DNA of 64,000 nt, from NCBI RefSeq assembly GCF_024055715.1, contig NZ_JAMXMV010000027.1, positions 1-64,000 of the forward strand, given 5' to 3'. The notes below the pieces were generated by a model, which ran no database searches, was not told where the DNA came from, and was given only the letters and a program-made list of their open reading frames with translations. Made by a program: the position numbers and the translations under genes. The DNA is from Actinoallomurus soli (GTDB taxonomy: Bacteria; Actinomycetota; Actinomycetes; Streptosporangiales; Streptosporangiaceae). Positions within the stretch are counted from its first letter, which is position 1; each line of letters begins with the position of its first letter. This document shows positions 24,569 through 44,617 of this stretch, one piece after another.

Positions 24569-24970
24569 GTGGACTACCGTGAGTTCATCCAGGCCATGCA
24601 GCGCAAAGGCGGCCTCGACGGCGACCTGGCCGAACGCGCCGCACGGGCGACCCTGACGACGCCGGCCGAATTCCTGGACAAGATCGCCGAACGTATCGCC
24701 GGTGGCGAGGTCGACCACCTGATCCCGCGGCCTTCCCTCACGCTGCACGGTCCGCTCAGACGCAGCGCGAGCGGCGGGACGGCGCGACGGATGCCGCTGA
24801 ACCGGCTCGTGGACCGTATCGCCGAGCCGGCGGGCGTGTACCCGTTCGAGGCGTGCGAGTACGCCTGCGCGGTCTTCGCCACGTTGTGCGAGGCAGTAGG
24901 GGACGACGAGTACTCCGACGTCACCGTCCAGCTGCCGATGGGCTACCACGCGCTGCTGCCGGAGCCATGA
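24569..24970 (+). CDS. Short DUF2267 protein
   Basis: A 133-aa DUF2267 protein. It begins VDYREFIQAMQRKGGLD and ends with VFATLCEAVGDDEYSDVTVQ, both typical DUF2267 helices. GTG 24569 has GGAGGAG 5 nt upstream. Aligned by eye with the 258-aa DUF2267 protein at 43841, it keeps the first and last parts but lacks the middle, and so looks like an internally deleted paralog. Its stop overlaps the LAL regulator start by ATGA, so the two are translationally coupled. Function of the family is not established; members recur in stress islands. Confidence 0.75.
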   Translation: MDYREFIQAMQRKGGLDGDLAERAARATLTTPAEFLDKIAERIAGGEVDHLIPRPSLTLHGPLRRSASGGTARRMPLNRLVDRIAEPAGVYPFEACEYACAVFATLCEAVGDDEYSDVTVQLPMGYHALLPEP

Positions 24971-27840
24971 TGTCCACCGTTCCGACGCACTGCACCGAGG
25001 ATGGTCGTGGGCCGGCGGCGATGCGCGGCCGTGCGGCCGAATGGAGCGCCGTCCTCGATCTGCTGGCCGCGGCGCAGGAGGGGCGCTCTGGGGTCCTGCT
25101 CGTCGAGGGCGAGCCCGGCATCGGCAAGAGCCTTCTCCTCCGCGAGGCGACGCGAACGGCCCGCGCGCGCGGCGTCTTGTCGGTGACGGTCGGCGCCCCC
25201 GAACTCGGCCGGATGCCGCTTGTGGAGTCGCTGCTCTCGGCGCTCGGCGAGGACGTGATCGCCGACGGCGAGGGACCGTCCGCCGAGCAGGACCGGCACA
25301 TGTGGCGGATCGAGAGGGTCCGCGCCGGTCTCGACGAACGAGCGGGAGCCGGCCCCGTGCTGGTCAGCCTCGACGACCTTCAGCTGGTGACGCCGACCGC
25401 CCTCGCGACGCTGCGGGCCTGGACGTCACAGCTCGCCGGCCGGCCCGTCGCGTGGCTGCTGGCCCGCAGCACGGTGAAGGAGGGGAAGGCCGCCGGTCGC
25501 CTCTTCGGCCTCCTCGAATACGACGGCGTGCAGCGGGTCATCCTGCCGCCGCTCGACGACGAGGCGCTGACCTGGATCGTCATCGACATGCTCGGTGCCG
25601 TGCCCGACGCGCGGCTGGCGGCGCTCGCCCGCCAGTCAGGCGGCAACCCGTACCTCCTCACCGCGCTCATAGCCGGACTGCGCGGCGAGAATGGGATCCA
25701 GATTCGCGACGGCAGCGCACGTCTCGTCGCGGCCGGCCTGCCGCGGCGGTCCCAGGCGGCGGCACGGCACCTGCTCGACCAGTTGAGCCCGCGGACGCGC
25801 CACCTGCTGACCGTGGCCGCGGTCCTGGCACGCTCGTTCTCGCCGGACGCCGCGGCCGCGGTGCTCGGCGCGACCCCGACCGCGATCGTCCCGCAGCTCG
25901 ACGAGGCGCTGTCGGCCGGCGTGCTCGCCGTCGCGGGGGAGGAGCTGGCCTTCCGGCACGGCCTGCTGTGGCAGGCGGTCACCGACGCCGTTCCGGTTCC
26001 CATCCGGAAGGCGCTGCACCAGCAGATCGGCGAGGTCCTGTACGACCGGGGCGGGCCTGCGACGGCGGCCGCGGCGCACCTGATGCAGGGTGTCCGCACG
26101 GGCGATCCCCGTGGCCTCGCCGAGCTGGATCGGCTGGTCGACGACATCCTGCCGGTCTCACCGCACACCGCGGCGGACATCGCACTGCGGGTAGTGCACC
26201 TCACCGGTCCCGCCGAACCGGCCCGCACCGATCGCACGCTGACCGCCGTCCGCACGCTCATGGAGGCGGGCCGGCTGGACGAGGCCGCCGGTTTCACCGA
26301 AGCGGCCCTCACCCGGCCGCTGACCGCCGCCGCCCACGCGCGCCTGTGCTGCCTCCGGTCGGAGATCCTGCACATGCAGGGCCGGTCGGCCGAGGCCGCG
26401 GCGGACGCCGCGACCGTACTGGCCCAACCGGGCCTACCGAACCGGCTCCGCGACGCCGCTGAACTCGCGCTGCTCAACGCGCAGGTCGCTGCCCGTGACG
26501 GTAGGCTCGCGCGTCGGCATGCGCAGGCGATCGTCGAGGCTGCCGGCGAGCACGGCGACGCCCTCGTCACCGGGGCGTTCATCACGCTCGCGCTGGCCGC
26601 GTGGGACATGGACGACCTGGCCGAGGGCCTGCGGCTCGCCCGCGAGGCCGTCAGCCGGGCGGCGTCCATCGACGCCTGGTGCCTGCACCCCCGGATGATT
26701 CTGGCGATGCTCCTGACCGACGTCCGGCGGCTGGACGAGGCATGTTCGGTGATGGCGAGCGCGGGCGACGACGTCAAGGTGCGCGGACGTCTCGTGTGGG
26801 CGGCGGCGCCCGCCGTGCTCCGCGCCCGTCTGCATCTGGCCGCGGGCCGTTTCGACGACGCGATCGCCGAGGCCGAGGCGGGCCTGGCGGCCACCAGTGG
26901 GTCGGGCCCGCATGTGCTGATGTCGTCCGCGCTGGCGGTGCTCGCCGTCGCCGCGCTGCGGTCCGGGGGCCCGAACGCCGCGCAGCGGTACGTCGACCGG
27001 GTACGGCCGGGACTGTCGCAGTACGGATCGCCACACGCAGAGGCCCGCTTCGCGCTCGTGACGAGCCAGATCGCGATGGCGCGCGATGGTGCCGGTGCCG
27101 TGGCGAGGGCGTTCGCGGAGCTGTGCGAGCAGGTGCCGGAGCACTCCTGGGCGCTGGTCAGCGACCCCACCGCGGCGGCCTGGCTGGTACGCACCGCGCT
27201 CGCCCTGGACGATCGCCTGCGAGCCGAGAGCGTGGTCGGCGCCGCGGAACGGCTCGCCCGCGAGAACCCGGGCTTTCCCACCGTCGCGGCGGCGGCCGAA
27301 CACGCCCGCGGCCTGCTGGACGGTGACGAGTGCGCGCTGGACCGCGCGTCCGCGGACCACGCCGACCCGTGGGCGCGCGCGTCCGCGGCGGAGGACCTCG
27401 GCGCACTGGCCGCGAGCCGGGGCACCGGGTCACGGCAGTCGGCCATCGCCAGCCTGGACCAGGCGCTGGCCGGCTACGACGGCATCGGCGCGGCCTGGGA
27501 CGCCGCTCGGGTGCGCCGCCGGCTTCGCCGGCTGGGCGTGCGGCGCCGCCACTGGACACAGGGCGAGCGTCCCGTCTCGGGCTGGGGCAGCCTCACCGAC
27601 ACCGAGCGCCGGATCACCGAGTTGGTCGCCCAGGGACTGACCAACCGGCAGGTGGCCGACCAGCTGTTCATCAGCGTGCACACGACCGCCTTCCACCTCC
27701 GTCACATCTTCCGCAAGCTCGAAATCGGCTCACGCTTCGAGCTGGCCCGGCGGGTCATGGAGGAGAACCGGCAACAGACGCCGTCCGACGCACGTCTCGG
27801 CGCGGCGACACCGGTCAGCACACCTCCCTGGCCAGGTTAG
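24967..27840 (+). CDS. LAL-type LuxR family ATP-binding transcriptional regulator
   Basis: A 957-aa regulator of the LAL/MalT class. An N-terminal ATPase has Walker A GEPGIGKS (residues 48-55) and Walker B PVLVSLDDLQLV. A long helical TPR-like middle follows, ending in a LuxR HTH (about 885-945): LTDTERRITELVAQGLTNRQ and HTTAFHLRHIFRKLEIGSR. Such proteins activate transcription when bound to ATP and an inducer. ATG 24967 overlaps the stop of the DUF2267 gene. The next gene follows after 8 bp and is probably co-transcribed. Confidence 0.92.
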   Translation: MMSTVPTHCTEDGRGPAAMRGRAAEWSAVLDLLAAAQEGRSGVLLVEGEPGIGKSLLLREATRTARARGVLSVTVGAPELGRMPLVESLLSALGEDVIADGEGPSAEQDRHMWRIERVRAGLDERAGAGPVLVSLDDLQLVTPTALATLRAWTSQLAGRPVAWLLARSTVKEGKAAGRLFGLLEYDGVQRVILPPLDDEALTWIVIDMLGAVPDARLAALARQSGGNPYLLTALIAGLRGENGIQIRDGSARLVAAGLPRRSQAAARHLLDQLSPRTRHLLTVAAVLARSFSPDAAAAVLGATPTAIVPQLDEALSAGVLAVAGEELAFRHGLLWQAVTDAVPVPIRKALHQQIGEVLYDRGGPATAAAAHLMQGVRTGDPRGLAELDRLVDDILPVSPHTAADIALRVVHLTGPAEPARTDRTLTAVRTLMEAGRLDEAAGFTEAALTRPLTAAAHARLCCLRSEILHMQGRSAEAAADAATVLAQPGLPNRLRDAAELALLNAQVAARDGRLARRHAQAIVEAAGEHGDALVTGAFITLALAAWDMDDLAEGLRLAREAVSRAASIDAWCLHPRMILAMLLTDVRRLDEACSVMASAGDDVKVRGRLVWAAAPAVLRARLHLAAGRFDDAIAEAEAGLAATSGSGPHVLMSSALAVLAVAALRSGGPNAAQRYVDRVRPGLSQYGSPHAEARFALVTSQIAMARDGAGAVARAFAELCEQVPEHSWALVSDPTAAAWLVRTALALDDRLRAESVVGAAERLARENPGFPTVAAAAEHARGLLDGDECALDRASADHADPWARASAAEDLGALAASRGTGSRQSAIASLDQALAGYDGIGAAWDAARVRRRLRRLGVRRRHWTQGERPVSGWGSLTDTERRITELVAQGLTNRQVADQLFISVHTTAFHLRHIFRKLEIGSRFELARRVMEENRQQTPSDARLGAATPVSTPPWPG

Positions 27841-29689: not shown

Positions 29690-30175
29690 ATGTCAACCGG
29701 CAGGGCCGAGGAAGGCCCGCACAAGGTCGTGCTCGGTACGTACGGCAGTCACGAGGCGGCCCAGCACATTGTGGACGTTCTTGCGCAGCACAAGTTCCCG
29801 GTGGAGCACGTGGGCATCGTGGGCACGGGCCTCAGGCTGCAGGAGGCCGTACTCGGCCGCCTCACCCTGGGCCGGGCCCTGGCCTCCGGAGCACTCACCG
29901 GTGGCTGGATCGGGCTTCTCGTCGGGCTCGTGTTCCTGATCGTCAGCCCGTGGGTGGCGGCATCGGTGATCTCCGCGGTCGTGATCGGCATCGTGTTCGG
30001 CCTGATCTGGGCGGCGGTCGCACACGTGTGGCGGCGGTCGTCGTTCGTCGCGGTGCCCGCCGTCGTCGCCGACCGTTACCAAGTGCTGGTCGACGCACCG
30101 TTCGCCGAGGAGGCGCGGCGCGTACTGGCCACGGCCAGGGTGGCTCCGGCCGGCAACGCGAGCCGACTGGTGTGA
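29690..30175 (+). CDS. General stress protein 17M-like membrane protein
   Basis: A 161-aa protein. The first about 60 residues match the GSP17M/YflT domain (VVLGTYGSHEAAQHIVDVLA, FPVEHVGIVGTGLRL), followed by two glycine-rich membrane helices (SGALTGGWIGLLVGLVFLIV and AASVISAVVIGIVFGLIWAA) and a C-terminal return strand YQVLVDAPFAEEARRVL. The family is associated with general stress. ATG 29690 with GAGGG. Followed after 20 bp by the DUF5335 gene. Confidence 0.82.
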   Translation: MSTGRAEEGPHKVVLGTYGSHEAAQHIVDVLAQHKFPVEHVGIVGTGLRLQEAVLGRLTLGRALASGALTGGWIGLLVGLVFLIVSPWVAASVISAVVIGIVFGLIWAAVAHVWRRSSFVAVPAVVADRYQVLVDAPFAEEARRVLATARVAPAGNASRLV

Positions 30176-30195: not shown

Positions 30196-30558
30196 ATGAG
30201 CCAGGCCACGACGGTCGACCGCGGCAAGTGGACGGAGTTCTTCGACACGCTGAGCGCGGATCACGCCGGTCACAGCGCCGCCATCGAACTGCTCGACGCC
30301 GACCTCGGTGACCAGTTCGAGACCGAGCGGCTGCCGTTCGCGTACGCCTCCTACGATCCCCGCGACGACGTGGTCGTCATCGGAGTCGGGGGGAACTCGG
30401 CGCGATTCCCGGTTCTGCTCCGCCACATGATCGACCATCCCACGGAGATCGACTTCACGGTCCTCGCCCCGGCCGAGACCGACGTCCGGATCGTCGGCGG
30501 GGACGGGACCGCGACCCTGCTGCGCCTGCGTCCGGAACCCGCCCTGCCTCCTCCCTGA
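30196..30558 (+). CDS. DUF5335 family protein
   Basis: A 120-aa soluble protein. It begins ATTVDRGKWTEFFDTLSADH and contains LPFAYASYDPRDDVVVIGVGG and RHMIDHPTEIDF, as in DUF5335 proteins. ATG 30196 is preceded by GGGAGGAG. Likely in one operon with the GSP17M-like gene. Molecular role unknown; occurs among stress genes. Confidence 0.78.
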   Translation: MSQATTVDRGKWTEFFDTLSADHAGHSAAIELLDADLGDQFETERLPFAYASYDPRDDVVVIGVGGNSARFPVLLRHMIDHPTEIDFTVLAPAETDVRIVGGDGTATLLRLRPEPALPPP

Positions 30559-30692: not shown

Positions 30693-32282
30693 TCATCCGC
30701 TGAGACGCTCGTGGACCAGCCGGACGGCCATCGCGCCTTCGCCCACGGCCGATGCGACCCGCTTGATTGACCCGCTCCTGACGTCGCCGACCGCGAACAC
30801 GCCCGGCAGGCTGGTCTCCAGGGGCAGCGCATCGTCACCGGTGCGGATGAAGCCTTTCCCGTCGAGCTCAACCTGGCCTGCCAGCCAGCCGACACAGGGG
30901 TCGGCGCCGATGAAGATGAACAGGTTCCGGGCCTCGTGGACGCGCCGTTCGCCGGTGCGGCCGTCCTCGACGACGACCGCCTCCAGCGTCTCGTCGCCGA
31001 CCAGCTCGCGCACCTCGGTGCGCAGGTGGACCTCGATGCCCGGAGAGCGCTCGATCTGGTCGATCAGGTAGCGGGACATGCTCTTGCCCAGGTCACCGCC
31101 CCGGACGAACAGCCTGACCCGCTTCGCGCGCTCAGCGAGATAAAGGGCGGCCTGGCCGGCCGAGTTGCCGCCGCCGACGACCGCGACGGGCAGGTGGACG
31201 CACTGCAGCGCCTCGACCTCGGTGGCGGCGTAGTAGACGCCGCACCCCTGGAACCGTTCGAGGCCAGGGACGTCGAGCGACCGGTAGCGGGCGCCGGTGG
31301 CGAGCACCACCGTGCGGGCGCTGATCCGGCCGCCGTCGCCGAGGGCGACGCCGTAGCCGGCGTTCCCGACCTCCAGCGCGGTGGCCTCCGCGGGGACACC
31401 GAGCCGCGCGCCGAACTTCTCGGCCTGGATGACCGCGCGCTCGGCGAGCTCGGCGCCGGAGATCCCAGAGGGGAACCCCAGGTAGTTCTCGATGCGGGAG
31501 GACGTGCCGGCCTGGCCGCCGGTGGCGACCGCGTCGACGACGACCGTGTTCAGGCCCTCGGACGCGCCGTAGACGGCCGCGGCCAGCCCGGCCGGCCCCG
31601 CACCGACGATCACGAGGTCGGCGACGTCGCCGTGGGCGGCCGGTGTCGGCAGGCCGATCGCGTGGGCCAGCTCGGCGTTGCTCGGGTTGCGCAGGATCCG
31701 GTCGCCGTTGAGGATCACCAGTGGGGTGTCCTCGGGCCGGACGCGCAGCCGCCGCAGTGCCTGTTCGGCCTGCGTGTCCTGTTCCAGGTCGATCCACCGG
31801 TGCGGGAGCCGGTTGCGCGCCGCGAAGTCCCGCAGCCGACGGGTGTCGGGGGAGAAGCGGGAGCCGATGATCCGCAGCCCGGCACCGAGCTCGATCAGCA
31901 GGGAGCGCCGGATGAAATAGGCACGCAGGACGAGGTCCCCGAGCACGGGGTCCCGGGCGATCAGCAGGCGCAGGTGCTCCGCCGGGATCCGCAGGACCGC
32001 TCCCGGCTCGTCGACCACGGCTCCGACCAGCGCCGCCTGCCCGGTGAGCAGGCCGAGCTCACCGAGGAACCGGCCCGGGCCGTGCACACGGATGACCTCG
32101 TCGGCGTCGACCATCGCGACCGAGCCCTCCAGGACCACGAAGAAGTCGTAGTCCGGCTCGCCCTGCCGGAACAGGACGTCGCCCTGCCGGGTCGGGATCC
32201 GCTCGCCGTGCGCGGACAGGCGCTGAATCTGCTCGGGGTCCAGCCGCGGCCATGCGCCGTGCAGGTCAGGTGTCTCTTGCAA
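30693..32282 (-). CDS. cNMP-binding domain fused to thioredoxin-reductase-like flavoprotein
   Basis: A 529-aa fusion. Residues about 20-135 form a cyclic-nucleotide-binding fold (GDVLFRQGEPDYDFFVVLEG, GRFLGELGLLTG); about 150-215 resemble a thioredoxin-fold linker (TPLVILNGDRILRNPSNAEL); about 222-529 are TrxR-like with FAD motif VIVGAGPAGLAAAVYGA and NAD(P) motif VAVVGGGNSAGQAALYLAER. The redox CxxC of true thioredoxin reductases is absent: the region reads GCGVYYAATEVEAL. The start is TTG 32282, supported by GGAG 7 nt upstream, and overlaps the thioredoxin stop by 17 bp. Last gene of the chaperone operon. It may reduce the partner thioredoxin by an altered route or act as a sensor. Confidence 0.88.
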   Translation of the reverse strand: MQETPDLHGAWPRLDPEQIQRLSAHGERIPTRQGDVLFRQGEPDYDFFVVLEGSVAMVDADEVIRVHGPGRFLGELGLLTGQAALVGAVVDEPGAVLRIPAEHLRLLIARDPVLGDLVLRAYFIRRSLLIELGAGLRIIGSRFSPDTRRLRDFAARNRLPHRWIDLEQDTQAEQALRRLRVRPEDTPLVILNGDRILRNPSNAELAHAIGLPTPAAHGDVADLVIVGAGPAGLAAAVYGASEGLNTVVVDAVATGGQAGTSSRIENYLGFPSGISGAELAERAVIQAEKFGARLGVPAEATALEVGNAGYGVALGDGGRISARTVVLATGARYRSLDVPGLERFQGCGVYYAATEVEALQCVHLPVAVVGGGNSAGQAALYLAERAKRVRLFVRGGDLGKSMSRYLIDQIERSPGIEVHLRTEVRELVGDETLEAVVVEDGRTGERRVHEARNLFIFIGADPCVGWLAGQVELDGKGFIRTGDDALPLETSLPGVFAVGDVRSGSIKRVASAVGEGAMAVRLVHERLSG

Positions 32283-32691
32283 TGTTCTTCTCCACCCATG
32301 CGCGCAGGACGGGAGCGGGCGCGGCGCCGGCCTGCCGATCGATCACCTTGCCGTCCCGCATGAGGAGCAGGGTCGGCACCGCCTGGACGGCGAACCGCTC
32401 CTGGATCTTCGGCGCCCGGTCGACGTCGACCTTCACGAGCTTGATCCGGCCGGCCATCTCGCGGGCGAGCTGTTCGAGCGCCGGGCTGACCATGCGGCAC
32501 GGGCCGCACCAGGTCGCCCACAGGTCGACCACGACCGGCACGGAGGCGCGCTCGGCGACGTCGGCGAAGTCGTCGTCGCCGGCGTCGGCGATCCACGGAA
32601 GCGGCCGGTGGCAGTTCCCGCAGCGCGGCGTACCATCGGCCACCGCCGGCACGCGGTTGCGCTTGCCGCAGTGCGGGCATTGGACGGTCAT
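32266..32691 (-). CDS. trxC: Thioredoxin 2-like protein with zinc ribbon
   Basis: A 141-aa thioredoxin. The N-terminal zinc ribbon (CPHCGKRN, C5/C8; CGNCHRP, C24/C27) is that of thioredoxin 2, followed by the redox site WCGPC (residues 61-65) and the cis-Pro VPTLLLM. It reduces protein disulfides and is often linked to oxidative or heat stress. ATG 32691 has GAGGGG 6 nt upstream. Ten bp after clpB, overlapping the next gene by 17 bp. Confidence 0.92.
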   Translation of the reverse strand: MTVQCPHCGKRNRVPAVADGTPRCGNCHRPLPWIADAGDDDFADVAERASVPVVVDLWATWCGPCRMVSPALEQLAREMAGRIKLVKVDVDRAPKIQERFAVQAVPTLLLMRDGKVIDRQAGAAPAPVLRAWVEKNIARDT

Positions 32692-32701
32692 CGATGCCCC
32701 C

Positions 32702-35287
32702 TCATGGGTTCTGGTGGGAGACCTTGAGTTCGCCGTCCTCCAGGACCACGCGGATGACCGCGCCGTCCAGGATCTCCCCGGACAGCAGCGCGCGGCCGAT
32801 CCGGGTCTCGACCTCGCGGGCGATGAACCGGCGTAGTGGCCGGGCGCCGTACACCGGGTCGAAGCCCTGGCGGGCGATGTAGGCGCACGCCTCCGGCGTG
32901 ACCTCCAGGGTCATCCGGCGATCCGCGAGGCGGCCCCGCAGGTCGTTGAACATCAGGTCGACGATCTGCTCGATCTCGCGCTGCGTCAGCGGCTTGAACA
33001 GCACGACGTCGTCCACCCGGTTGAGGAACTCGGGCCGGAAGTGGGTGCGCAGCGCGTCCATGACGGCATCGCGCGCGTCGGGCTTGATCTCGCCGTCGGA
33101 GGTGACGCCGACCAGCAGGTAGTCCGAGCCGATGTTCGACGTCATGATCAGCACGGTGTTGCGGAAGTCGACGGTACGGCCCTGGGCGTCGGTGAGCCGG
33201 CCGTCGTCGAGGACCTGCAGCAGCGTGTTGAACACGTCGGTGTGGGCCTTTTCGATCTCGTCGAGCAGCACGACGGAGTACGGCTTGCGCCGGACGGCCT
33301 CGGTGAGCTGGCCGCCCTCTTCGTAGCCGACGTAGCCGGGCGGGGCGCCGACCAGGCGGCTGACGGTGTGCCGCTCCTGGTATTCGCTCATGTCCAGCCG
33401 GACCATGTTCTCCTCGGTGTCGAACAGCGCCGCGGCCAGCGCCTTGGCCAGCTCCGTCTTGCCGACACCGGTCGGGCCGAGGAAGATGAACGAGCCGATC
33501 GGGCGGCGCGGGTCCTTGATCCCGGCCCGGGCCCGGATGATGGCGTCGGTGACCAGCCGCACGGCCTCGTCCTGGCCGACGACGCGTTCATGCAGCACCT
33601 CGTCGAGCCGGAGGAGCTTTTCGCGTTCGCCCTCCTTGAGGCGGCTCACCGGGACGCCGGTCCAGCGGGACACGATGTCGGCGATCTCGTCCTCGGTCAC
33701 GACCTCGCGCAGCAGCCGCCGGCCGCCCTGCTTGTCGGACAGCCGCTCCTCCTCGGCCTGCAGCCTGCGTTGCAGTTCCGGCAGCAGGCCGTGGCGCAGT
33801 TCGGCGGCGCGGTTCAGGTCGTAGTCGCGTTCGGCCTGGTCGGCCTCCCGGCGGACGCGTTCGATCTCCTGGCGCAGGTCCTGCACCTTACGGAGCGCCT
33901 GCCGTTCGGCCTCCCACTGGGCCCGCATGGCGTCGGCCTCGGCCTTGAGGTCGGCCAGTTCCTTGCGCAGGTCCTCCAGGCGCGCCCGGCTGGCCGGGTC
34001 CTCCTCCTTGGACAGTGCCGCCTCCTCGATCTCCAGGCGCGTCACCCGCCGCGTGAGCTCGTCGAGTTCGGCGGGCATCGAGTCGATCTCGGTGCGCAGT
34101 TTCGCCGCCGCCTCGTCGACCAGATCGATGGCCTTGTCCGGCAGGTACCGGTCGGAGATGTAACGATGGCTGAGCGTTACCGCGGCGACGATCGCAGAGT
34201 CTTGGATCTTCACGCCGTGGAAGACCTCCAGGCGCTCACGCAGGCCACGGAGGATCGAGATGGCGTCCTCGACGGAGGGCTCGTCGACCATGACGGGCTG
34301 GAAGCGGCGTTCGAGGGCGGCGTCCTTCTCGATGTGCTTGCGGTACTCCTGCAGCGTGGTGGCGCCGATCATGTGGAGTTCACCGCGGGCGAGCATGGGC
34401 TTGAGCATGTTGCCGGCGTCCATCGCGCCCTCGGCGGCGCCCGCACCGACGACCGTGTGCAGCTCGTCGACGAACAGCAGGATCCGCCCTTCGGCGGCCT
34501 TGACCTCGCCCAGCACCGCCTTGAGGCGTTCCTCGAACTCGCCGCGGTACTTCGCGCCCGCGACCAGCGAGCCCATGTCGAGAGCCCAGACGGTCTTGTC
34601 CCGCAGCCCCTCCGGCACGTCGCCCTGGTCGATGCGCTGGGCGAGCCCTTCGACGATCGCGGTCTTGCCGACGCCCGGGTCGCCGACGAGCACCGGGTTG
34701 TTCTTCGTCTTGCGGGACAGGATCTGGATGACGCGGCGAATCTCGGTGTCCCGGCCGATGACCGGATCGAGTTTCCCGGTCCGTGCCTCGGTGACCAGGT
34801 CCCGGCCGTACTTCTCCAGTGCCTCGTAGGCGGCCTCCGGCATCGATGAGGTCACCCGCTGGTTGCCGCGGACCTTCGTCAGCTCCTCGAGGAACCGGTC
34901 GCGCGTGACCCCCTGGATCAGCCCGTCCTCGATGAGGGCCAGCACGAGGTGCTCGACCGAGACGTACTCGTCCTTCAGCCGTTTCGCCTCGCGCTCGGCC
35001 GTGTCGAACAGCCGGGACAGCCGCTGGGTCACGTACACCTGACCGGGCGCCGCGCCCGGGCCGGTGACCCGCGGACGCCGCTGGAGCCGGGACTCGGTCT
35101 CCGTGCGCAGCAGGTCGGTGTTCACGCCGGCCCCCGCCAGCAGCCGGGGGGCCAAGCCCTCCGGCTGGTCGAGCAGGGCGAGCAGGAGGTGCTCGGCGTC
35201 GACCTCGGTGTGCCCGAAGCGCAGGGCCTTGGTCTGCGCGTCGTGCAGGGCCTCCTGGGACTTCTCGGTCAGTCGGTTCAGGTCCAT
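32702..35287 (-). CDS. clpB: ATP-dependent disaggregase ClpB
   Basis: An 861-aa Hsp100 chaperone that pulls proteins out of aggregates with the DnaK system. It shows the N-domain repeats, the first AAA+ module (Walker A GDPGVGKT), the coiled-coil middle domain (Glu/Arg/Leu-rich, about 400-530), and the second AAA+ module ([15 protein letters not shown], sensor region [14 protein letters not shown]). ATG 35287 is preceded by GGAG and overlaps the cbpM stop by 10 bp, so production is coupled to the Hsp70 genes upstream. Confidence 0.95.
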
Positions 35288-35592
35288 GATCGATCTCCGG
35301 AGCGTTGGTGAGCGCGATGTCTCTGGGCCGCCTCCAGGGCGGCGATGCGGTCGAGCAGGTCGCACACCAGGCCGACCGCCGCGTAGTTGAGCGAGAACCC
35401 GGCGCGGAGCCGCTGCACGCGCGCGAGGACCGCGAGCTGCTCGCGGGAGAACCACAGCCCGCCGGAGACGTCACGGTCGGCGTCGATGATGCCCAGCGCG
35501 ACGAACCGGCGGATCAGCTCCGGGTGGACGTGGGCGTCGCGTGCGAAGGTCTCCAGGTCGACCCGTACCGGCCGCATGAGCGCGTACCTCAC
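35278..35592 (-). CDS. cbpM: Chaperone modulator CbpM-like (MerR-like) protein
   Basis: A 104-aa MerR-type single-domain protein ([40 protein letters not shown]). In this position, straight after a zinc-less DnaJ, it fits CbpM, which binds the J-domain of CbpA and tunes DnaK; a HspR-like repressor role is the alternative. GTG 35592 with GGAGG 5 nt upstream overlaps the dnaJ stop (GTGA). Confidence 0.82.
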
Positions 35593-36566
35593 GGTCGCCT
35601 CCTCGGATCGAACGACGACGTGGCGGCCAGTTCCTCGAAGAGCCGTCTCTCCTCGGGACCGGGCTCGGGTGGCACTTTGATCTGGACCTCGGCGTACAGG
35701 TCCCCCGGAGTACCGCGGGGGTTGGGCAGGCCGCGGCCGCGCAGCCGCAGCCGCCTGCCGCAGGACGAACCGGGCGGCACCTTCACCTTCGCCTCGCCGC
35801 CCGGCGTCTCGACCGGGGCACTGGTGCCGAGCGCCGCCTCCCAGGGGGCGAGCGGCAGCCGTACCGTGACGTCACGGCCGTCGACGCGGTACCTCGGGTC
35901 CGGCCTGATGCGCACGATCAGGTACAGGTCGCCCGACTGCCCGCCGTCGCCACCGTGGCCGCCCTGCCCGGCGAGCCGGATCCGCTGGCCATCGGTGACC
36001 CCGGCGGGGATGTCGACGTCGACGGTCCTGCCATCAAGACCGATCGTGCGATGCCCGCCGCGGTACGCCTCGTCCAGACCGATCTCCAGCTCGGCCTCCT
36101 GGTCGGCACCGGGCATCGGTCCCCAGCCGAAACCGCCTGGACGGCGTCCCCGCCCGGCACGGCCGGCGCGTCCTCCGAAGATGCCACCGAGCAGATCCTC
36201 GAGGTCGACCTCCTCGCCCCCCGTACCGAACCCGCCGAAGCCGCCGAACCCGCCGGCCCCGGCGCCCGCACGCGTCCGCCCCCCGGCGCCGGCGCCGGCG
36301 CGGGCACGGGCCCACGTCTGCGGATCGACGTCCGGCGGCACGCGCCGGAAGTCCTCGCCGAAGGCGTCGTAGCGCTTGCGTTGTTCGGGGTCGGACAGCA
36401 CGGCGTACGCCTCGGACGCCTCCTTGAAGCGGTCCTCCGCGTCGGGGGCCTTGTTGACGTCGGGGTGGTATTTACGGGCGAGCTTGCGGTACGCGCGCTG
36501 GATCTCGTCCTGGCCGGCCGTTCTGGGCACGCCGAGGATCTCGTAGAAGTCACGGGCCGGAGCCAT
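35589..36566 (-). CDS. cbpA: J-domain co-chaperone, DnaJ class II (CbpA-like)
   Basis: A 325-aa DnaJ. The J-domain has the essential HPD ([12 protein letters not shown]); a Gly/Ala/Phe-rich linker (about 88-115) follows, then the two C-terminal beta domains ([20 protein letters not shown]). The CxxCxGxG zinc repeats of class I DnaJ are missing. It stimulates DnaK ATPase and delivers clients. ATG 36566 lies within the end of grpE (17-bp overlap). Confidence 0.92.
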
Positions 36567-37047
36567 CGGCCTGCCGTCCCTTCGAGACCACCACCTGCGC
36601 CGGACGCAGCTGGTTCTCGCCGTGGCCGTATCCGGGCCTGGTGACCTGCACGATCGTCCCCTCCGGGACGTCGGCGTCGGGAACGGCGGCGACCGCCTCG
36701 TGCCGGGTCGGGTCGAACAGGCGTCCCGTGTCGTCCTGGCGTGGATAGCCGAGCCGGGCGAGCACCGTGAGCGCCTGGTCGCGGACGGCGCGCACACCGT
36801 CGAGGAGGACGTCGGGCTCGGCACCGGCGTGCTCGATGGCCCGTTCGAGGTTGTCCACGACGGGCAGCCACTCGGCGGCGGTCCTGGCCCGCTCATCGGA
36901 CCGCGAACGCTCGGCGTCGCGGCCGGCACGCTTGCGGTAGTTCTCCAGGTCGGCGAGCGCGCGCTTCCACCGGTCCTCCAGCTCGGCGAGCTTCGTCGCC
37001 AGACCGCCGTCCTCTTCTGCCGGTTCTTCCGGCCGCATGTCACTCAT
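36550..37047 (-). CDS. grpE: Nucleotide exchange factor GrpE
   Basis: A 165-aa GrpE that releases ADP from DnaK. The long N-terminal helix ([20 protein letters not shown]) and the beta domain ([20 protein letters not shown], then [14 protein letters not shown]) match the family. ATG 37047 overlaps dnaK by 8 bp and its own 3' end overlaps dnaJ by 17 bp. Confidence 0.93.
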
Positions 37048-38971
37048 CGGTCGTGAACTCCGCGTCGATCACGTCCTCGTCGCCTCCGGTGGCTCCGCCA
37101 CCGGTGCCCGGACCGCCGGGACCGCCGGGGCCTCCCGGTCCTGTCGCACCCGGTCCTGTCGCACCCAGTCCGGCGCCGGCCGTCACGGTGCCGAGCCCGT
37201 AGTAGACCTGCTGGAGCTCGGCGGTCAGGTTCCGGAGCCGCTCGACCGGCGCCTCTTCCTTCATCGCCTGCCGGGCGTCGCCGACGAGCATCTCGGCGCG
37301 CGCCTTCTCGTGCGTCGGCACGCCCTCCCCGAGCTCCTGGACCCGCTTTTCGACCTGGTAGGCGATGGAGTCGAGCTGGTTGCGGGCGTCGATCATCTCG
37401 CGCAGCCGCTCGTCCTCGGAGCGGTGCTGCTCGGCGTCCTGGATCATCCGCTCGATCTCGGACTGGTCGAGGTTGGTCGTCTCGCTGATGGTGACCGTCT
37501 GCTCGACGCCGGTGTCCTTGTCCCGCGCGGAGACGTTGAGGATTCCGTTGGCGTCGATGTCGAAGGTCACCTCGATCTGCGGTACGCCGCGTGGGGCGGG
37601 CCGGATGTTCTCCAGCCGGAACCGCGCGAGGACCCGGTTGTCGGCGGCGCGTTCGCGTTCGCCCTGCAGGACGACGACGTCCACCGCGGTCTGGTTGTCC
37701 TCGGCGGTGCTGAAGGTCTCCGTGCGGCGGGCCGGGATGGTGGTGTTCCGCTCGATGATCTTGGTCATGACGCCGCCGAGCGTCTCCAGGCCGAGCGACA
37801 GGGGCGTGACGTCCAGCAGGACGACGTTCTCGACCTCGCCCTTGATGACGCCGGCCTGGGCCGCCGCGCCGAGGGCGACGACCTCGTCCGGGTTGACCGT
37901 CATGTTGGGGTCCTTACCGCCGGTCATCCTGCGGACGAGCTCCTGCACGGCCGGGATGCGGGTGGACCCGCCGACGAGGATGACCTCGTCGATGTCGTTC
38001 GCGGTGGTCTTCGCGTCGGCCATCGCCGTCTGCACCGGGCCCTTGGTGCGTTCGATGAGGTCGCCGGTGATCTGCTCGAAGGTCGAGCGCATCAGCGTGG
38101 TGTTCAGGTGCTTGGGGCCGTTCGCGTCCGCGGTGACGAACGGCAGGTTGATCGTCGTCTGGGTCACCGAGGACAACTCGACCTTGGCCTTCTCCGCGGC
38201 CTCGAACAGGCGCTGCAGCGCCTGGGGGTCGCGGCGCAGGTCGATGCCGGTGTCCCGCTGGAACTCATCGGCGAGGTGATCGACGATGCGGCGGTCGAAG
38301 TCGTCGCCGCCGAGGTGCCCGTCACCGGCGGTCGAGAGGACCTCCACGACGCCTTCGCCGATGCTGAGCAGGCTCACGTCGAACGTGCCGCCACCGAGGT
38401 CGAAGATGAGCACCGTCTCGTTCGCGCCCTTGTCCAGGCCGTAGGCCAGCGCGGCGGCGGTCGGCTCGTTGATGATCCGCAGGACCTCCAGGCCGGCGAT
38501 CTTCCCGGCGTCCCGCGTGGCCTGGCGCTGGGCGTCGTTGAAGTAGGCGGGGACCGTGATGACGGCCTCGGTCACCCGCTCACCGAGGAACTTGCCGGCG
38601 TCGTCGGCGAGTTTGCGCAGCACGAGTGCGGAGATCTCCTCCGGAGCGTACTGCTTGCCGCGGACGTCGAAACGTACCGCGCCGTCCGGACCGGACACCA
38701 CGTCGAACGAGACCGCGTTGATCTCGCTGGCCACCTCGTCGTACCGGCGGCCGATGAAGCGTTTCGCCGAGTAGATCGTGCCCTTGGGGTTGAGGATCGC
38801 CTGCCGGCGCGCGAGCTGCCCGACCAGGCGCTCACCCTGCTCGGTGAAGGCCACCACGGACGGCGTCGTGCGCGATCCCTCGCTGTTGGGGATCACCGTC
38901 GGGTGACCGTCCTCGGTGGTAGCGATCACGGAGTTCGTGGTTCCGAGATCGATTCCGACTGCCTTGGCCAT
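37040..38971 (-). CDS. dnaK: Hsp70 chaperone DnaK
   Basis: A 643-aa Hsp70. The ATPase domain has [37 protein letters not shown] and [13 protein letters not shown]; the linker [18 protein letters not shown] leads to the substrate-binding domain and lid; the tail is Gly/Pro-rich and ends with [16 protein letters not shown] 38971 has AGGAGGAG upstream. First gene of a seven-gene operon. I found no clear HAIR or CIRCE element in the 297-bp upstream gap, so its heat control, if any, is not obvious. An actinomycete usually has another dnaK locus; this may be an accessory set. Confidence 0.96.
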
Positions 38972-39268
38972 GCTCTCCTCCTAGCCGGACCTACGGAGCC
39001 CCGGCCTTCGGCGGAGAACAGCATGATCGGCTGGACGCTCGGAGCTCCTGCATCACGATGGCGTTACACCATCCAACGCTCGCCCTTCGCATGGCCGCTC
39101 GCATCCTCAGCCTTGGTAGACATGGCGTCCGCGTCTCGGCGGTGGCGCGCGGTCTTCCGGGCCGTGCCGAGGGTGGGGATCGACGCCGGACGAACTCCGC
39201 CCGGCGGGCGCTCGAGTGACGTCCTCGATCGTGTAGTGCAGCCGCCGTCGGGCGGTCGTCGTGGTGGC
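38972..39268 (-). other. Upstream region of the chaperone operon
   Basis: About 300 bp between dnaK and the DUF1931 gene, presumed to hold the operon promoter. I see no convincing HspR (HAIR), HrcA (CIRCE) or sigma-factor consensus and no real gene; an 19-codon ORF on the minus strand (start near 39123) is probably spurious. Confidence 0.4.
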
Positions 39269-39718
39269 CTACAGCAGGAGGTCGAACACGCGGCCGACGC
39301 GTTCCCAGTGCTCGGTGTGCGGGTTCTTCAGCTTCGGATCGATCAGTTTGAACGCGCGGGCGAGCGCGACGGTCAGTCCTCCGGCGATCTGTGGCAGGTC
39401 GGCCTCGGTCTCATCCGCGACCATCAGCTCGAGCGGCGGGTGCTTGGCGAGCCGCTCGAGGAGCGACTCGAGCTCGACCTCCTCGTCGAGCTTGCGGAAC
39501 TCGTGGATGCACTCCTGCAAGCCCTTGGTCACGGGTAGATCGTGCGGCTGGATGATGTCGCGGGCGTTGGCCTTGGCGTGTGCCTGGCCGATGAGGATCA
39601 GGTCGTAGATCTTGCCGTCGACGAAGTCGTCGTAGCGCTTGAGGTCGTCCTTGTCGACGTCCAGGCTCGCGGCGGCACGGAACAGGCGCTGAAACTGCGG
39701 GATGCCGGTCGGGGGCAT
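39269..39718 (-). CDS. DUF1931 histone-fold protein
   Basis: A 149-aa member of DUF1931, whose known structures have a pseudo-dimeric histone fold. The core is DVDKDDLKRYDDFVDGKIYD, AHAKANARDIIQPHDLPVTK and GLQECIHEFRKLDEEVEL. Two histone-fold halves in one chain are expected. GGAGG lies 7 nt before ATG 39718. Same strand as dnaK but 297 bp away. DNA binding is plausible but not shown for the family as far as I know. Confidence 0.85.
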   Translation of the reverse strand: MPPTGIPQFQRLFRAAASLDVDKDDLKRYDDFVDGKIYDLILIGQAHAKANARDIIQPHDLPVTKGLQECIHEFRKLDEEVELESLLERLAKHPPLELMVADETEADLPQIAGGLTVALARAFKLIDPKLKNPHTEHWERVGRVFDLLL

Positions 39719-40022: not shown

Positions 40023-40607
40023 TCACGCCTCCTCGAGGACCGCCGCCACGGCCGCGGCCACGGCCCGGGGGTCGGCGGGCACGGGCACCCCGTCGACCAT
40101 GACGGTCGGCGTCGCGCCGACGCCGCGCCGGCCGGCGGCGAAGGTCACGTAGGCCGCCCAGCCCAGGTAGGCACCGCCGAGCACGCAGCGGGCGAAGCCG
40201 GGATCGGTCAGCCCCACGGACCGGCCTCTCTCGATCAGCTCCTCGTCGGTCAGGCCGGGCCCGCCCTCGGGCGGCTGCACCGCGAACAGCGCCCGGGCGT
40301 ACTCCCGGAACCGTCCGCCGTCGGCCGCACAGCCCGACGACGACGCGGCGCGCGATGAGTAATGATTGGTCGACAGGCGGTCCAGGAACGACATCGGGTG
40401 GTAGTCGATGTTGATCAGCTGGTCGGCTACGAGCCGGTCCAGGGTCGGCCCGGCGACCTCTTCGAACCGCTTGCAGTACGGGCACTGGAAGTCGATGTAA
40501 GTGTCTACGGTGACGGGACCGGCGCCGACCACGACGCCGTCTCCGCCGGCCGACGCACCGGCCGGAACGCGGTCCGGTGCGGGGGCCATGGGCATCCATG
40601 TGGTCAC
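40023..40607 (-). CDS. DsbA family thiol oxidoreductase
   Basis: A 194-aa thioredoxin-fold protein with the active site DFQCPYCKRF (C42/C45) and the cis-Pro loop VGATPTVMVDGVPV. GTG 40607 has AGGAGG 5 nt upstream. No signal peptide or anchor is evident, so it may act in the cytoplasm, unlike classical DsbA. Likely a disulfide oxidoreductase or isomerase that adds to the redox theme of the neighbouring operon. Confidence 0.85.
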   Translation of the reverse strand: MTTWMPMAPAPDRVPAGASAGGDGVVVGAGPVTVDTYIDFQCPYCKRFEEVAGPTLDRLVADQLINIDYHPMSFLDRLSTNHYSSRAASSSGCAADGGRFREYARALFAVQPPEGGPGLTDEELIERGRSVGLTDPGFARCVLGGAYLGWAAYVTFAAGRRGVGATPTVMVDGVPVPADPRAVAAAVAAVLEEA

Positions 40608-40864
40608 GAGGCCTCCTGAGTCCGATTGGGGCGGGCCGACCGGTGTTCTGGCATCGCACCTGGTCAAAGGCCCATGCTGGTCGCTCTGACCCTGCCCTGA
40701 CGGCGTGACCTAAACACCGGCCGTGCCTTTGCCGCGCCCTTGCCGGGCTGTGTCGGCGCCCATGAGGCGTGAAGCCTGGCTCAAGTCTTGCCAGGCAGTT
40801 TGGCCCCCGCCGGAAGACGAAGTCCCGTGGAAGGAGACGGGCATCGCGCTCCGAGGGGGAACGT

Positions 40865-43686: not shown

Positions 43687-43824
43687 ATGGCATTGCCGGT
43701 GAAGCGCGCCAGGGGCGGCCGGCTGCACGGACTGGAACCGACCGCCGTGGTATTGCGACGGGATCCGTTCGCCGATGTGCAGGAGCGCTGGCGGCGGGCC
43801 GGTCTCGACGTCGCGGCTGATCGA
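43687..43824 (+). pseudogene. Possible Hsp20 N-terminal remnant
   Basis: ATG 43687 opens MALPVKRARGGRLHG then LRRDPFADVQERWRRAGLD. The pattern MxLPV...WDPFxxFExxxxRM is the start of actinobacterial small heat-shock proteins, but the alpha-crystallin domain never follows; the frame runs into the DUF2267 gene. Probably a truncated hsp20 whose 5' end now precedes the DUF2267 gene. Confidence 0.35.
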
Positions 43825-43840
43825 GTGGCGGGGCAACCTC

Positions 43841-44617
43841 ATGGAATTTCGCGAGTTCATCCGCACGGTACAGCGCGGCGCCGGTCTCGATGCCGACGCG
43901 GCTGAACGTGCGGCACGGGCGACGCTCACGACGCTGGCCGAGCGGCTTTCCCCAGGGGAGGCGCGGGACCTTCTGGAAGAACTTCCGGCCGAGATGAAAC
44001 CCTGGGTCTACACCGAGTCCGCCGCCGAACGCTTCGACATCGATGAGTTCCTGCGCCGCGTGGCCGAACGCGCCGGTGTGGATGTCGAGACCGCCGAGCG
44101 GCATGCGCGCGCCGTCTTCTTCGCACTCGGGCGGGCCGTACGCGCCGACGAGATCGACGACATCGCGGCGGAACTGCCCCAGGACTTCGAACCCCTCATC
44201 GCCGAGGCCCGGCATCGGTTCTTCACGGTGATGCCGAGCGAGGAGTTCCTGTCCCGGGTGGCGGAGCGAACCGGCCTCGACATCGATGGAGCGCGACGCG
44301 CCACCGAGGCCGTCTTGACGGCGCTCGCCCAGCGCATCGCGGGCGGCGAGGTCGACGACCTCATCCCGCGGCTCCCACTGTCGCTGCACGATCCACTCAG
44401 GCGCGGCAGGGCGGCGACCGGCGGCAGGGCGCGGCGGATGAGCCTGGACAGGTTCCTCCAGATCATCGCCGACCGGGAGGGAATCGACCGGTTCGCGGCG
44501 AGCGAGCACGCCCGGGCGGTCTTCGCCACCTTGCGCGAGGCGGTCGGCGACGAGGAGTACTTCGACGTGACCGTCCAGTTGCCGCCGGACTACTCGGTGC
44601 TGCTGCCCGTGCCGTGA
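43841..44617 (+). CDS. Multi-repeat DUF2267 protein
   Basis: A 258-aa protein with about three DUF2267 repeats, each with EFLxRVAERxGxD and RAVxxALxxRxxxxExDDxxxxLP patterns (starts near residues 3, 66 and 138), and a C-terminal repeat ending VFATLREAVGDEEYFDVTVQ. All helical and soluble. ATG 43841 (MEFREFIRTVQRGAGLD). Paralog of the short protein at 24569. Family function is unknown; it recurs in actinomycete stress islands. Confidence 0.78.
   Translation: MEFREFIRTVQRGAGLDADAAERAARATLTTLAERLSPGEARDLLEELPAEMKPWVYTESAAERFDIDEFLRRVAERAGVDVETAERHARAVFFALGRAVRADEIDDIAAELPQDFEPLIAEARHRFFTVMPSEEFLSRVAERTGLDIDGARRATEAVLTALAQRIAGGEVDDLIPRLPLSLHDPLRRGRAATGGRARRMSLDRFLQIIADREGIDRFAASEHARAVFATLREAVGDEEYFDVTVQLPPDYSVLLPVP

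Follow-up and report, generated by a model that had tools for sequence, protein, structure and literature searches.

Whether a protein disaggregation system and the redox genes lying beside it act as one unit, and what switches such a unit on, is the question raised by a 64,000-nucleotide stretch of Actinoallomurus soli (assembly GCF_024055715.1, contig NZ_JAMXMV010000027.1, positions 1 to 64,000; hereafter the window). Seven genes, dnaK-grpE-cbpA-cbpM-clpB-trx-flavoprotein, run along its minus strand, and an earlier note had read them as a joint unit that unfolds, refolds and reduces damaged proteins, with the flavoprotein reducing the partner thioredoxin and sensing cyclic nucleotides. The comparisons described here make it probable that the run is an actinobacterial auxiliary cassette for disaggregation, complete in itself and switched by a LAL-type regulator. 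The joint unit gained support from conserved synteny, whereas the part of it that cast the flavoprotein as a thioredoxin reductase (TrxR) did not stand.

All seven open reading frames (ORFs) were present as the earlier note had them, and so were the junctions, with overlaps of 8, 17, 4 and 10 nt down to clpB, a gap of 10 nt between clpB and trx and an overlap of 17 nt between trx and the flavoprotein gene. Pfam and NCBIfam searches backed the gene identities. The auxiliary dnaK (37040..38971) scored 934.9 bits against the TIGR02350 cut-off of 822.55, grpE (36550..37047) scored 121 bits with Pfam GrpE, and the dnaJ gene (35589..36566) is of the CbpA type, with Pfam reporting DnaJ and DnaJ_C only and no zinc-finger domain. 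The CbpM/HspR-like protein (35278..35592) passed the Pfam MerR_2 cut-off with 44.5 bits and fell below both NCBIfam cut-offs, for CbpM (24.2 vs 138) and HspR (29.3 vs 105); its plasmid relatives carry the annotation chaperone modulator CbpM. ClpB (32702..35287) has two Walker A motifs, at residues 202 and 604, and exceeded the TIGR03346 cut-off (1325.9 vs 1232.1 bits), while remaining below the NCBIfam cut-offs for ClpK and ClpG (775 and 762 vs 1900). The thioredoxin (32266..32691) is TrxC-like, with an N-terminal zinc ribbon and the active site WCGPC. Its four ribbon cysteines and the two of the CGPC site are each kept in 80–81 of 82 rows, and its scores lie under the NCBIfam TrxC (105 vs 125) and Pfam Zn_ribbon_Thio2 (20.8 vs 27.1) cut-offs. 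The flavoprotein gene (30693..32282) starts with TTG, seven bases downstream of GGTGGAG.

To what extent this arrangement is conserved was followed through 297 genomes of the host's order, where the flavoprotein was sought at E<=1e-130. It was found in 73 genomes and in 20 of 62 genera, giving 80 matches of at least 525 bits each; in smaller surveys the next matches stood at about 420 bits or below. Counting the window, the matches make up 79 loci (numbered with the prefix L; L044 holds two matches), all of which were read, some cut by contig ends, and re-annotated with profiles built in the analysis. In 63 of the 79, the flavoprotein gene had a trx gene on its own strand no more than 300 nt away. 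Within 9.5 kb of the flavoprotein, ClpB was encoded in 54 loci, DnaK in 50 and both in 47, and in 44 an unbroken dnaK-grpE-dnaJ-cbpM-clpB run shared the strand of the flavoprotein gene. DUF1931 occurred within the same distance in 44/79 loci and YflT in 31/79; in 23 loci, dnaK was immediately preceded by the YflT gene. A UBP zinc finger was present within 500 nt in 2/79. The trx/flavoprotein junction could be measured 67 times (62 loci of the order and five plasmids): the genes were within 60 nt of each other in 62 cases, and the remaining five were the plasmids, where in most a zinc-finger gene separates the two. The overlap was exactly 17 nt in 17 cases, including all eight genomes of the genus.

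Within the genus, the gene order of the window is common to four genomes (the window, L038, L040 and L043). In L041 and L042, trx-flavoprotein-DUF1931 precede dnaK..clpB, an order also visible in L039 up to the contig end, and the contig of L037 begins inside dnaJ. Outside the genus, the chaperone block is inverted in L075, L090 and L133, with the modules still neighbours. That the modules remain linked despite the changed order argues for a shared function.

Cassettes were also found beyond the order. Among the best 80 loci of a wider genome scan, chaperone-linked copies occurred in Streptomyces, Actinacidiphila, Paractinoplanes, Mycobacterium, Nocardioides, Amycolatopsis, Arthrobacter, Diaminobutyricibacter and several metagenome-assembled genomes, one of them labelled Solirubrobacterales, for which mis-binning is possible. 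The cassette is in addition carried on plasmids. From 678 matching plasmid records, nine of the 14 best were read: dnaK-grpE-dnaJ-cbpM-clpB-trx was complete in all nine regions, a UBP zinc finger lay between trx and the flavoprotein gene in eight, and the flavoprotein gene was interrupted in L248. The earlier note had named a lack of synteny outside this strain as what would count against its proposal; instead, the cassette proved to be conserved as a unit in the genus, the order, plasmids and further families of actinobacteria, and many soil members of the group possess it.

Another account would be an ordinary second dnaK-clpB heat-shock operon, with trx and the flavoprotein gene as unrelated hitch-hikers on its promoter. 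The dnaK operon of Thermus, dnaK-grpE-dnaJ-dafA-clpB, is arranged alike, dnaJ and clpB being separated by the gene of a small protein; it is not known to have a trx-flavoprotein-DUF1931 module. Trx-flavoprotein pairs without chaperones occur in L068-L071, L108 and L120-L122. A second operon, dnaK2-grpE2-dnaJ2, has been reported in Streptomyces avermitilis beside dnaK1-grpE1-dnaJ1-hspR, where sigma-8 bound a dnaK1 promoter probe and not a dnaK2 probe; the available part of that paper does not name cbpM, clpB, trx or the flavoprotein with the second operon (PMC5402319). Against the hitch-hiker account, the linkage outlasts permutation and inversion of the modules, the operator-like motif described below precedes dnaK or YflT at one set of loci and trx or UBP at another, and no HspR or CIRCE box was found before the cassette. 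We regard this account as rather unlikely.

The relation to the genome's own heat-shock genes bears on the same point. The dnaK-grpE-dnaJ-hspR and clpB genes of actinomycetes are under HspR/HAIR control. The canonical dnaK-grpE-dnaJ-..-clpB of A. soli lies on another contig (L050), and the paralogous cassette proteins are 58% (ClpB) and 53% (DnaK) identical to its products, so that, judged by sequence, the cassette is a second, auxiliary chaperone set of the genome. In a ClpB tree of 29 of the 32 sequences chosen (L041, L075 and L136 were too short), the 28 cassette copies grouped together, far from the canonical copy; as this copy is the only one of its kind in the tree, whether cassette ClpBs form one clade against all others is not decidable from it. 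The HspR box showed one mismatch before dnaK in L050 and six in the window, and at least four in all 66 cassette dnaK upstream regions (400 nt each; two pairs are the same contig). No credible HrcA (CIRCE) or SigR-like box was found before the cassette, and no DosR box at <=4 mismatches in 64 regions. A HAIR-like site 58 nt before trx, with two mismatches, was dropped, as it falls in clpB codons and is not kept across the genus (shared by L040; mismatches 3 in L038, 5 in L043, 6 in L041 and L042, and 7 in L037). The cassette thus resembles the canonical set in its chaperones and in the MerR-family gene after dnaJ, and differs from it as a separate lineage without the HAIR box and with a CbpA-type J protein and the trx-flavoprotein pair. 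Apparently, it is switched by a regulator of its own instead of the usual heat-shock repressor. Scanning of the cassette region gave no sigma-70-like promoter and one terminator-like match, inside the flavoprotein gene, against a shuffle mean of 3.4, such scans being weak at this G+C.

What the flavoprotein contributes is a separate matter. It has three domains, of which the N-terminal cNMP-like and the TrxR-like one were recognized by Pfam, and the glutaredoxin (Grx)-like middle one was assigned by eye together with the secondary structure of an AlphaFold2 model (pLDDT 90.7). Foldseek aligned the model to the TrxR structures 3cty and 5mh4 with TM-scores to target of 0.94–0.95, placing it in the TrxR fold, and matched AhpF as well; of the Lactococcus TrxR structures, the one labelled FR (0.94) fitted far better than that labelled FO (0.65). 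Beyond this fold, the protein departs from low-Mr thioredoxin reductases and AhpF in lacking the redox disulfide, in its cNMP-like domain and in one conserved cysteine located elsewhere. The redox CxxC was absent from 97 of 97 aligned non-TrxR rows (the window included, one protein entered twice), most cassette flavoproteins reading VYYAATxxEAxxC, whereas the true TrxR of the genome (L062) keeps CATC in VSWCATCDGF. The Grx-like domain had a CxxC in 0/98 rows, and the score with TIGR01292 was below the TrxR cut-off (227.9 vs 343.45). Cys361 is kept in 96/98 rows, the exceptions being the true TrxR and L111, and is invariant in all 40 sequences of a phylum-wide alignment. In cAMP- and cGMP-binding domains, an Arg of the phosphate-binding cassette contacts the phosphate. 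The N-terminal domain exceeded the Pfam cNMP_binding cut-off (58.3 vs 27.5), and Ala84 is aligned to the phosphate-binding Arg of PKG; none of the 87 rows that have this domain carries Arg at the position. Having neither CxxC nor this Arg, the flavoprotein should neither reduce thioredoxin in the fashion of TrxR nor bind cAMP canonically. It should not be a working thioredoxin reductase, and canonical cyclic-nucleotide sensing is unlikely; the flavoprotein as reductase of the thioredoxin is not supported in the form given by the earlier note. Full-length flavoprotein paralogues, 46–47% identical, were also seen in three genus genomes (L047, L048, L049), trx and chaperone genes being absent from the stretch read.

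That the disaggregase comes with a thioredoxin and a dedicated thioredoxin reductase under cyclic-nucleotide gating is accordingly very improbable. The tight and conserved trx-flavoprotein junction and the TrxR fold would fit it, and the invariant Cys361 could in principle permit monothiol chemistry; the missing CxxC in both domains, the score below the TrxR cut-off and the missing Arg speak against it. So do the 64 loci of the family outside cassettes: profile searches detected no trx in them, and their one chaperone match was a distant ClpB-like gene (L189). A UBP zinc finger was instead found by profile search within about 600 nt in 13 of these loci, and UBP-type genes lie beside the family without chaperones in Gemmatimonadota, Acidobacteria, Bacteroidota and Proteobacteria (L151, L165, L167, L172, L175, L177, L180, L186, L188, L194, L196, L202 and L211). 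Among 98 of the 122 first-neighbour ORFs from the 64 loci (24 short ORFs were left out by eye), zf-UBP was the commonest Pfam family, with only four members. The UBP family is rare in a control, occurring in 2 of 14 genomes; the A. soli genome holds one zf-UBP gene, away from the cassette. A tentative joint reading is that the flavoprotein family descends from thioredoxin reductase, has lost the redox disulfide while keeping one cysteine widely, and forms with the small UBP zinc finger an undescribed redox or protein-tail-recognising quality-control module across several phyla. Actinobacteria would then have combined the flavoprotein, a histone-fold protein and a TrxC-like thioredoxin in a disaggregation island that is LAL-switched and at times located on plasmids, a counterpart of the proteobacterial tLST.

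If HspR does not govern the cassette, another switch may be written in front of it. Comparison of upstream regions exposed the motif GACTACC-N8-GGATGTG, which was counted as CTACC-N5-TGRGGATGYG. Palindromic dyads sought de novo did not exceed shuffles, and the asymmetric dyad that led to the motif was only just above them (5 clusters vs 4). Among 162 upstream regions, taken where no other cassette gene closely precedes the gene in question, the motif was present at <=2 mismatches in 32 (13 exact) against 0.4 expected from mononucleotide shuffles. By next gene, these were YflT (12/37), DnaK (11/46), Trx (4/22), DUF1931 (2/10), UBP (2/3) and GrpE (1/26), with none before the flavoprotein gene (0/12) or before ClpB, CbpM and DnaJ together (0/6), and the sites lay 73–324 nt before the profile starts. 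Per locus, a site at <=1 mismatch occurred in 29/79 loci vs 2/395 shuffles. The window site, CTACCAAGGCTGAGGATGCG (39100..39119, minus strand), is 148 nt before dnaK, is conserved in the four genus genomes that have the window arrangement and is the sole exact copy in the 9.4-Mb genome. Within the window alone, matches at <=3 mismatches numbered 5 against 5.2 by chance. Genome-wide matches at <=2 mismatches were set aside (28 vs 60 for a reversed control), and exact and one-mismatch matches were used.

The commonest extra neighbour family of the loci is a LAL regulator, in reach in 39/79 loci, ending 9–25 nt beyond the flavoprotein gene in seven loci and lying just upstream of YflT in others. 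That of the window (24964..27840, plus strand, start codon uncertain), the candidate activator, combines by Pfam an AAA_16 domain with a GerE/LuxR helix-turn-helix (HTH) in one protein of about 900 residues, as in LAL regulators, which have an AAA ATPase at the N-terminus and a LuxR HTH at the C-terminus and which we take to be the MalT family; what sets it apart is its place beside a chaperone cassette and a proposed target motif, whose GGATG half presumably resembles the MalT box. A census of the host family gave LAL matches at E<=1e-90 in 84/250 genomes. Motif (<=1 mismatch) and LAL coincided in 22 loci, with the motif only in 7, LAL only in 17 and neither in 33 (Fisher p=4e-4); since the motif was derived from part of the counted loci and the loci are related, enrichment and p-value overstate independence.

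Regions around LAL paralogues provided a further comparison. Six (L250-L255) were fetched for the LAL alone, and two of them contained exact sites (L250 and L254, that of L254 preceding a GrpE-like ORF by about 30 nt), where about 0.02 sites would be expected in the six from two <=1-mismatch sites per 9.4 Mb. A seventh, L249 (contig C11 of the A. soli genome), was fetched with its site already known: this site (L249:11606-11801), the genome's only other one at <=1 mismatch, is 3.6 kb from a LAL paralogue and 195 nt before a gene that we take to be polysaccharide-pyruvyl-transferase-like, the paralogue being followed by a DUF2267-like gene (by eye). The motif thus also occurs with some LAL paralogues away from cassettes. 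As a side observation, GrpE-like genes adjoin LAL paralogues outside cassettes at L254:8221-8962, with the exact motif just before, and at L253:10462-11043.

It is possible, if the less likely option, that the motif is read by another regulator or belongs to an alternative sigma-factor promoter, with the LAL linked by chance or acting elsewhere. The site distances are compatible with a promoter element, and the loci with only the motif or only the LAL, as well as the four LAL-paralogue regions without a site better than three mismatches, speak for this alternative. The exact sites in two LAL-paralogue regions outside cassettes and the one-mismatch site in L249 argue the other way, and so does the build of the motif, whose halves (GGTAGTC/GGATGTG) form an imperfect inverted repeat, as would fit an HTH of the LuxR type acting as a dimer.

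Several points weigh against the preferred reading of a self-contained, LAL-switched cassette. The overstated independence, the seven motif loci with no LAL in reach, the 17 LAL loci with no <=1-mismatch site and the four siteless paralogue regions are among them. In addition, 130 of the 162 upstream regions have no good motif, including those of the first five plasmid cassettes (L057-L061; Streptomyces, Rhodococcus, Nocardia), and the window LAL is 2.9 kb from the flavoprotein gene, with several genes between and no motif site before it. Where YflT stands before dnaK, the 400 nt in which the HspR box was sought may not include the true promoter. ClpB is out of reach in 25/79 loci, several cut by contig ends, and most of these hold trx-flavoprotein alone, so that the redox pair also stands by itself. 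The ClpB tree groups largely follow families and so do not speak for wide transfer between families.

Taking the preferred reading as a whole, a triggered regulator would yield one transcript with a second DnaK-GrpE-CbpA set and a CbpM-like brake on CbpA, expression having passed from HspR control to an AAA-LuxR protein that would bind a GACWWCC-N8-GGWWGTG operator ahead of the first gene. DnaK-dependent ClpB would pull out and refold aggregated proteins under stress, and the zinc-ribbon thioredoxin would reduce wrong disulfides in the freed chains, being recharged by the housekeeping thioredoxin reductase and not by the neighbouring flavoprotein. As the latter has no exchangeable disulfide, it would take electrons from NADPH to FAD and then, via Cys361 or straight from the flavin, either hand them to another acceptor or act as a sensor of redox state. 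The contact between LAL and operator and the acceptor of the flavoprotein are the weakest steps.

The DUF1931 and YflT neighbours, together with the candidate regulator, the operator-like motif and the second chaperone set, were additions to the account of the earlier note. Upstream of dnaK lies the gene for the DUF1931 histone-fold protein (39269..39718, minus strand; Pfam 193 bits), and a DsbA/Thioredoxin_4-like protein is encoded further upstream on the same strand (40023-40667). DUF1931 histone-fold proteins are said to lack conventional DNA-binding residues in the part available of a published account (PMC11390915). On the plus strand, a YflT-domain general stress protein (29690..30175, Pfam) is followed by a small protein (30196..30558), presumably DUF5335-like, which also adjoins the cassette in L038, L040 and L043. 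The gene at 43775-44617 encodes a DUF2267 protein that weakly matches the HU-like family Bac_DNA_binding, and DUF2267 genes also occur near the plasmid cassette of L061.

The closest known counterpart is the tLST, or locus of heat resistance, of beta- and gammaproteobacteria, for which the passages available describe a disaggregase, oxidative-stress genes and divergent copies of core proteins (PMC8290217, PMC8129007). An accessory locus of the disaggregase-plus-redox kind is thus, from what is available of that work, already known (PMC8290217), and the cassette is best read as analogous to it. Both have an extra disaggregase module with oxidative-stress genes including thioredoxin, built from diverged second versions of core proteins and often on plasmids or islands, and recombinase and Tn7-like (TnsA-like, TniB, TniQ) genes lie about 4–12 kb from three plasmid cassettes (L058:24310-31565, L059:680-1387, L247:17303-20649). 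They differ in that the tLST has an autonomous ClpG/ClpK with sHSP20, whereas the cassette relies on ClpB, which depends on DnaK, and brings DnaK, GrpE, CbpA and CbpM of its own; it adds the flavoprotein, DUF1931 and LAL, and is actinobacterial. The tLST core dna-shsp20-clpG, as given in the passages available (PMC8290217), is not what the cassette contains, its disaggregase being ClpB and not ClpG; sHSP20 was not searched for. The titles, abstracts and passages of the literature found contain no description of this composition, of the regulator or of the non-TrxR flavoprotein.

If this reading is true, actinobacteria would have a portable kit for rescuing proteins, with a predicted private switch of LAL and operator, that parallels the island by which proteobacteria resist heat and chlorine. 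A large family partly annotated as thioredoxin-disulfide reductase should not act as one, and the gene neighbourhood ties DUF1931 histone-fold proteins to protein quality control.

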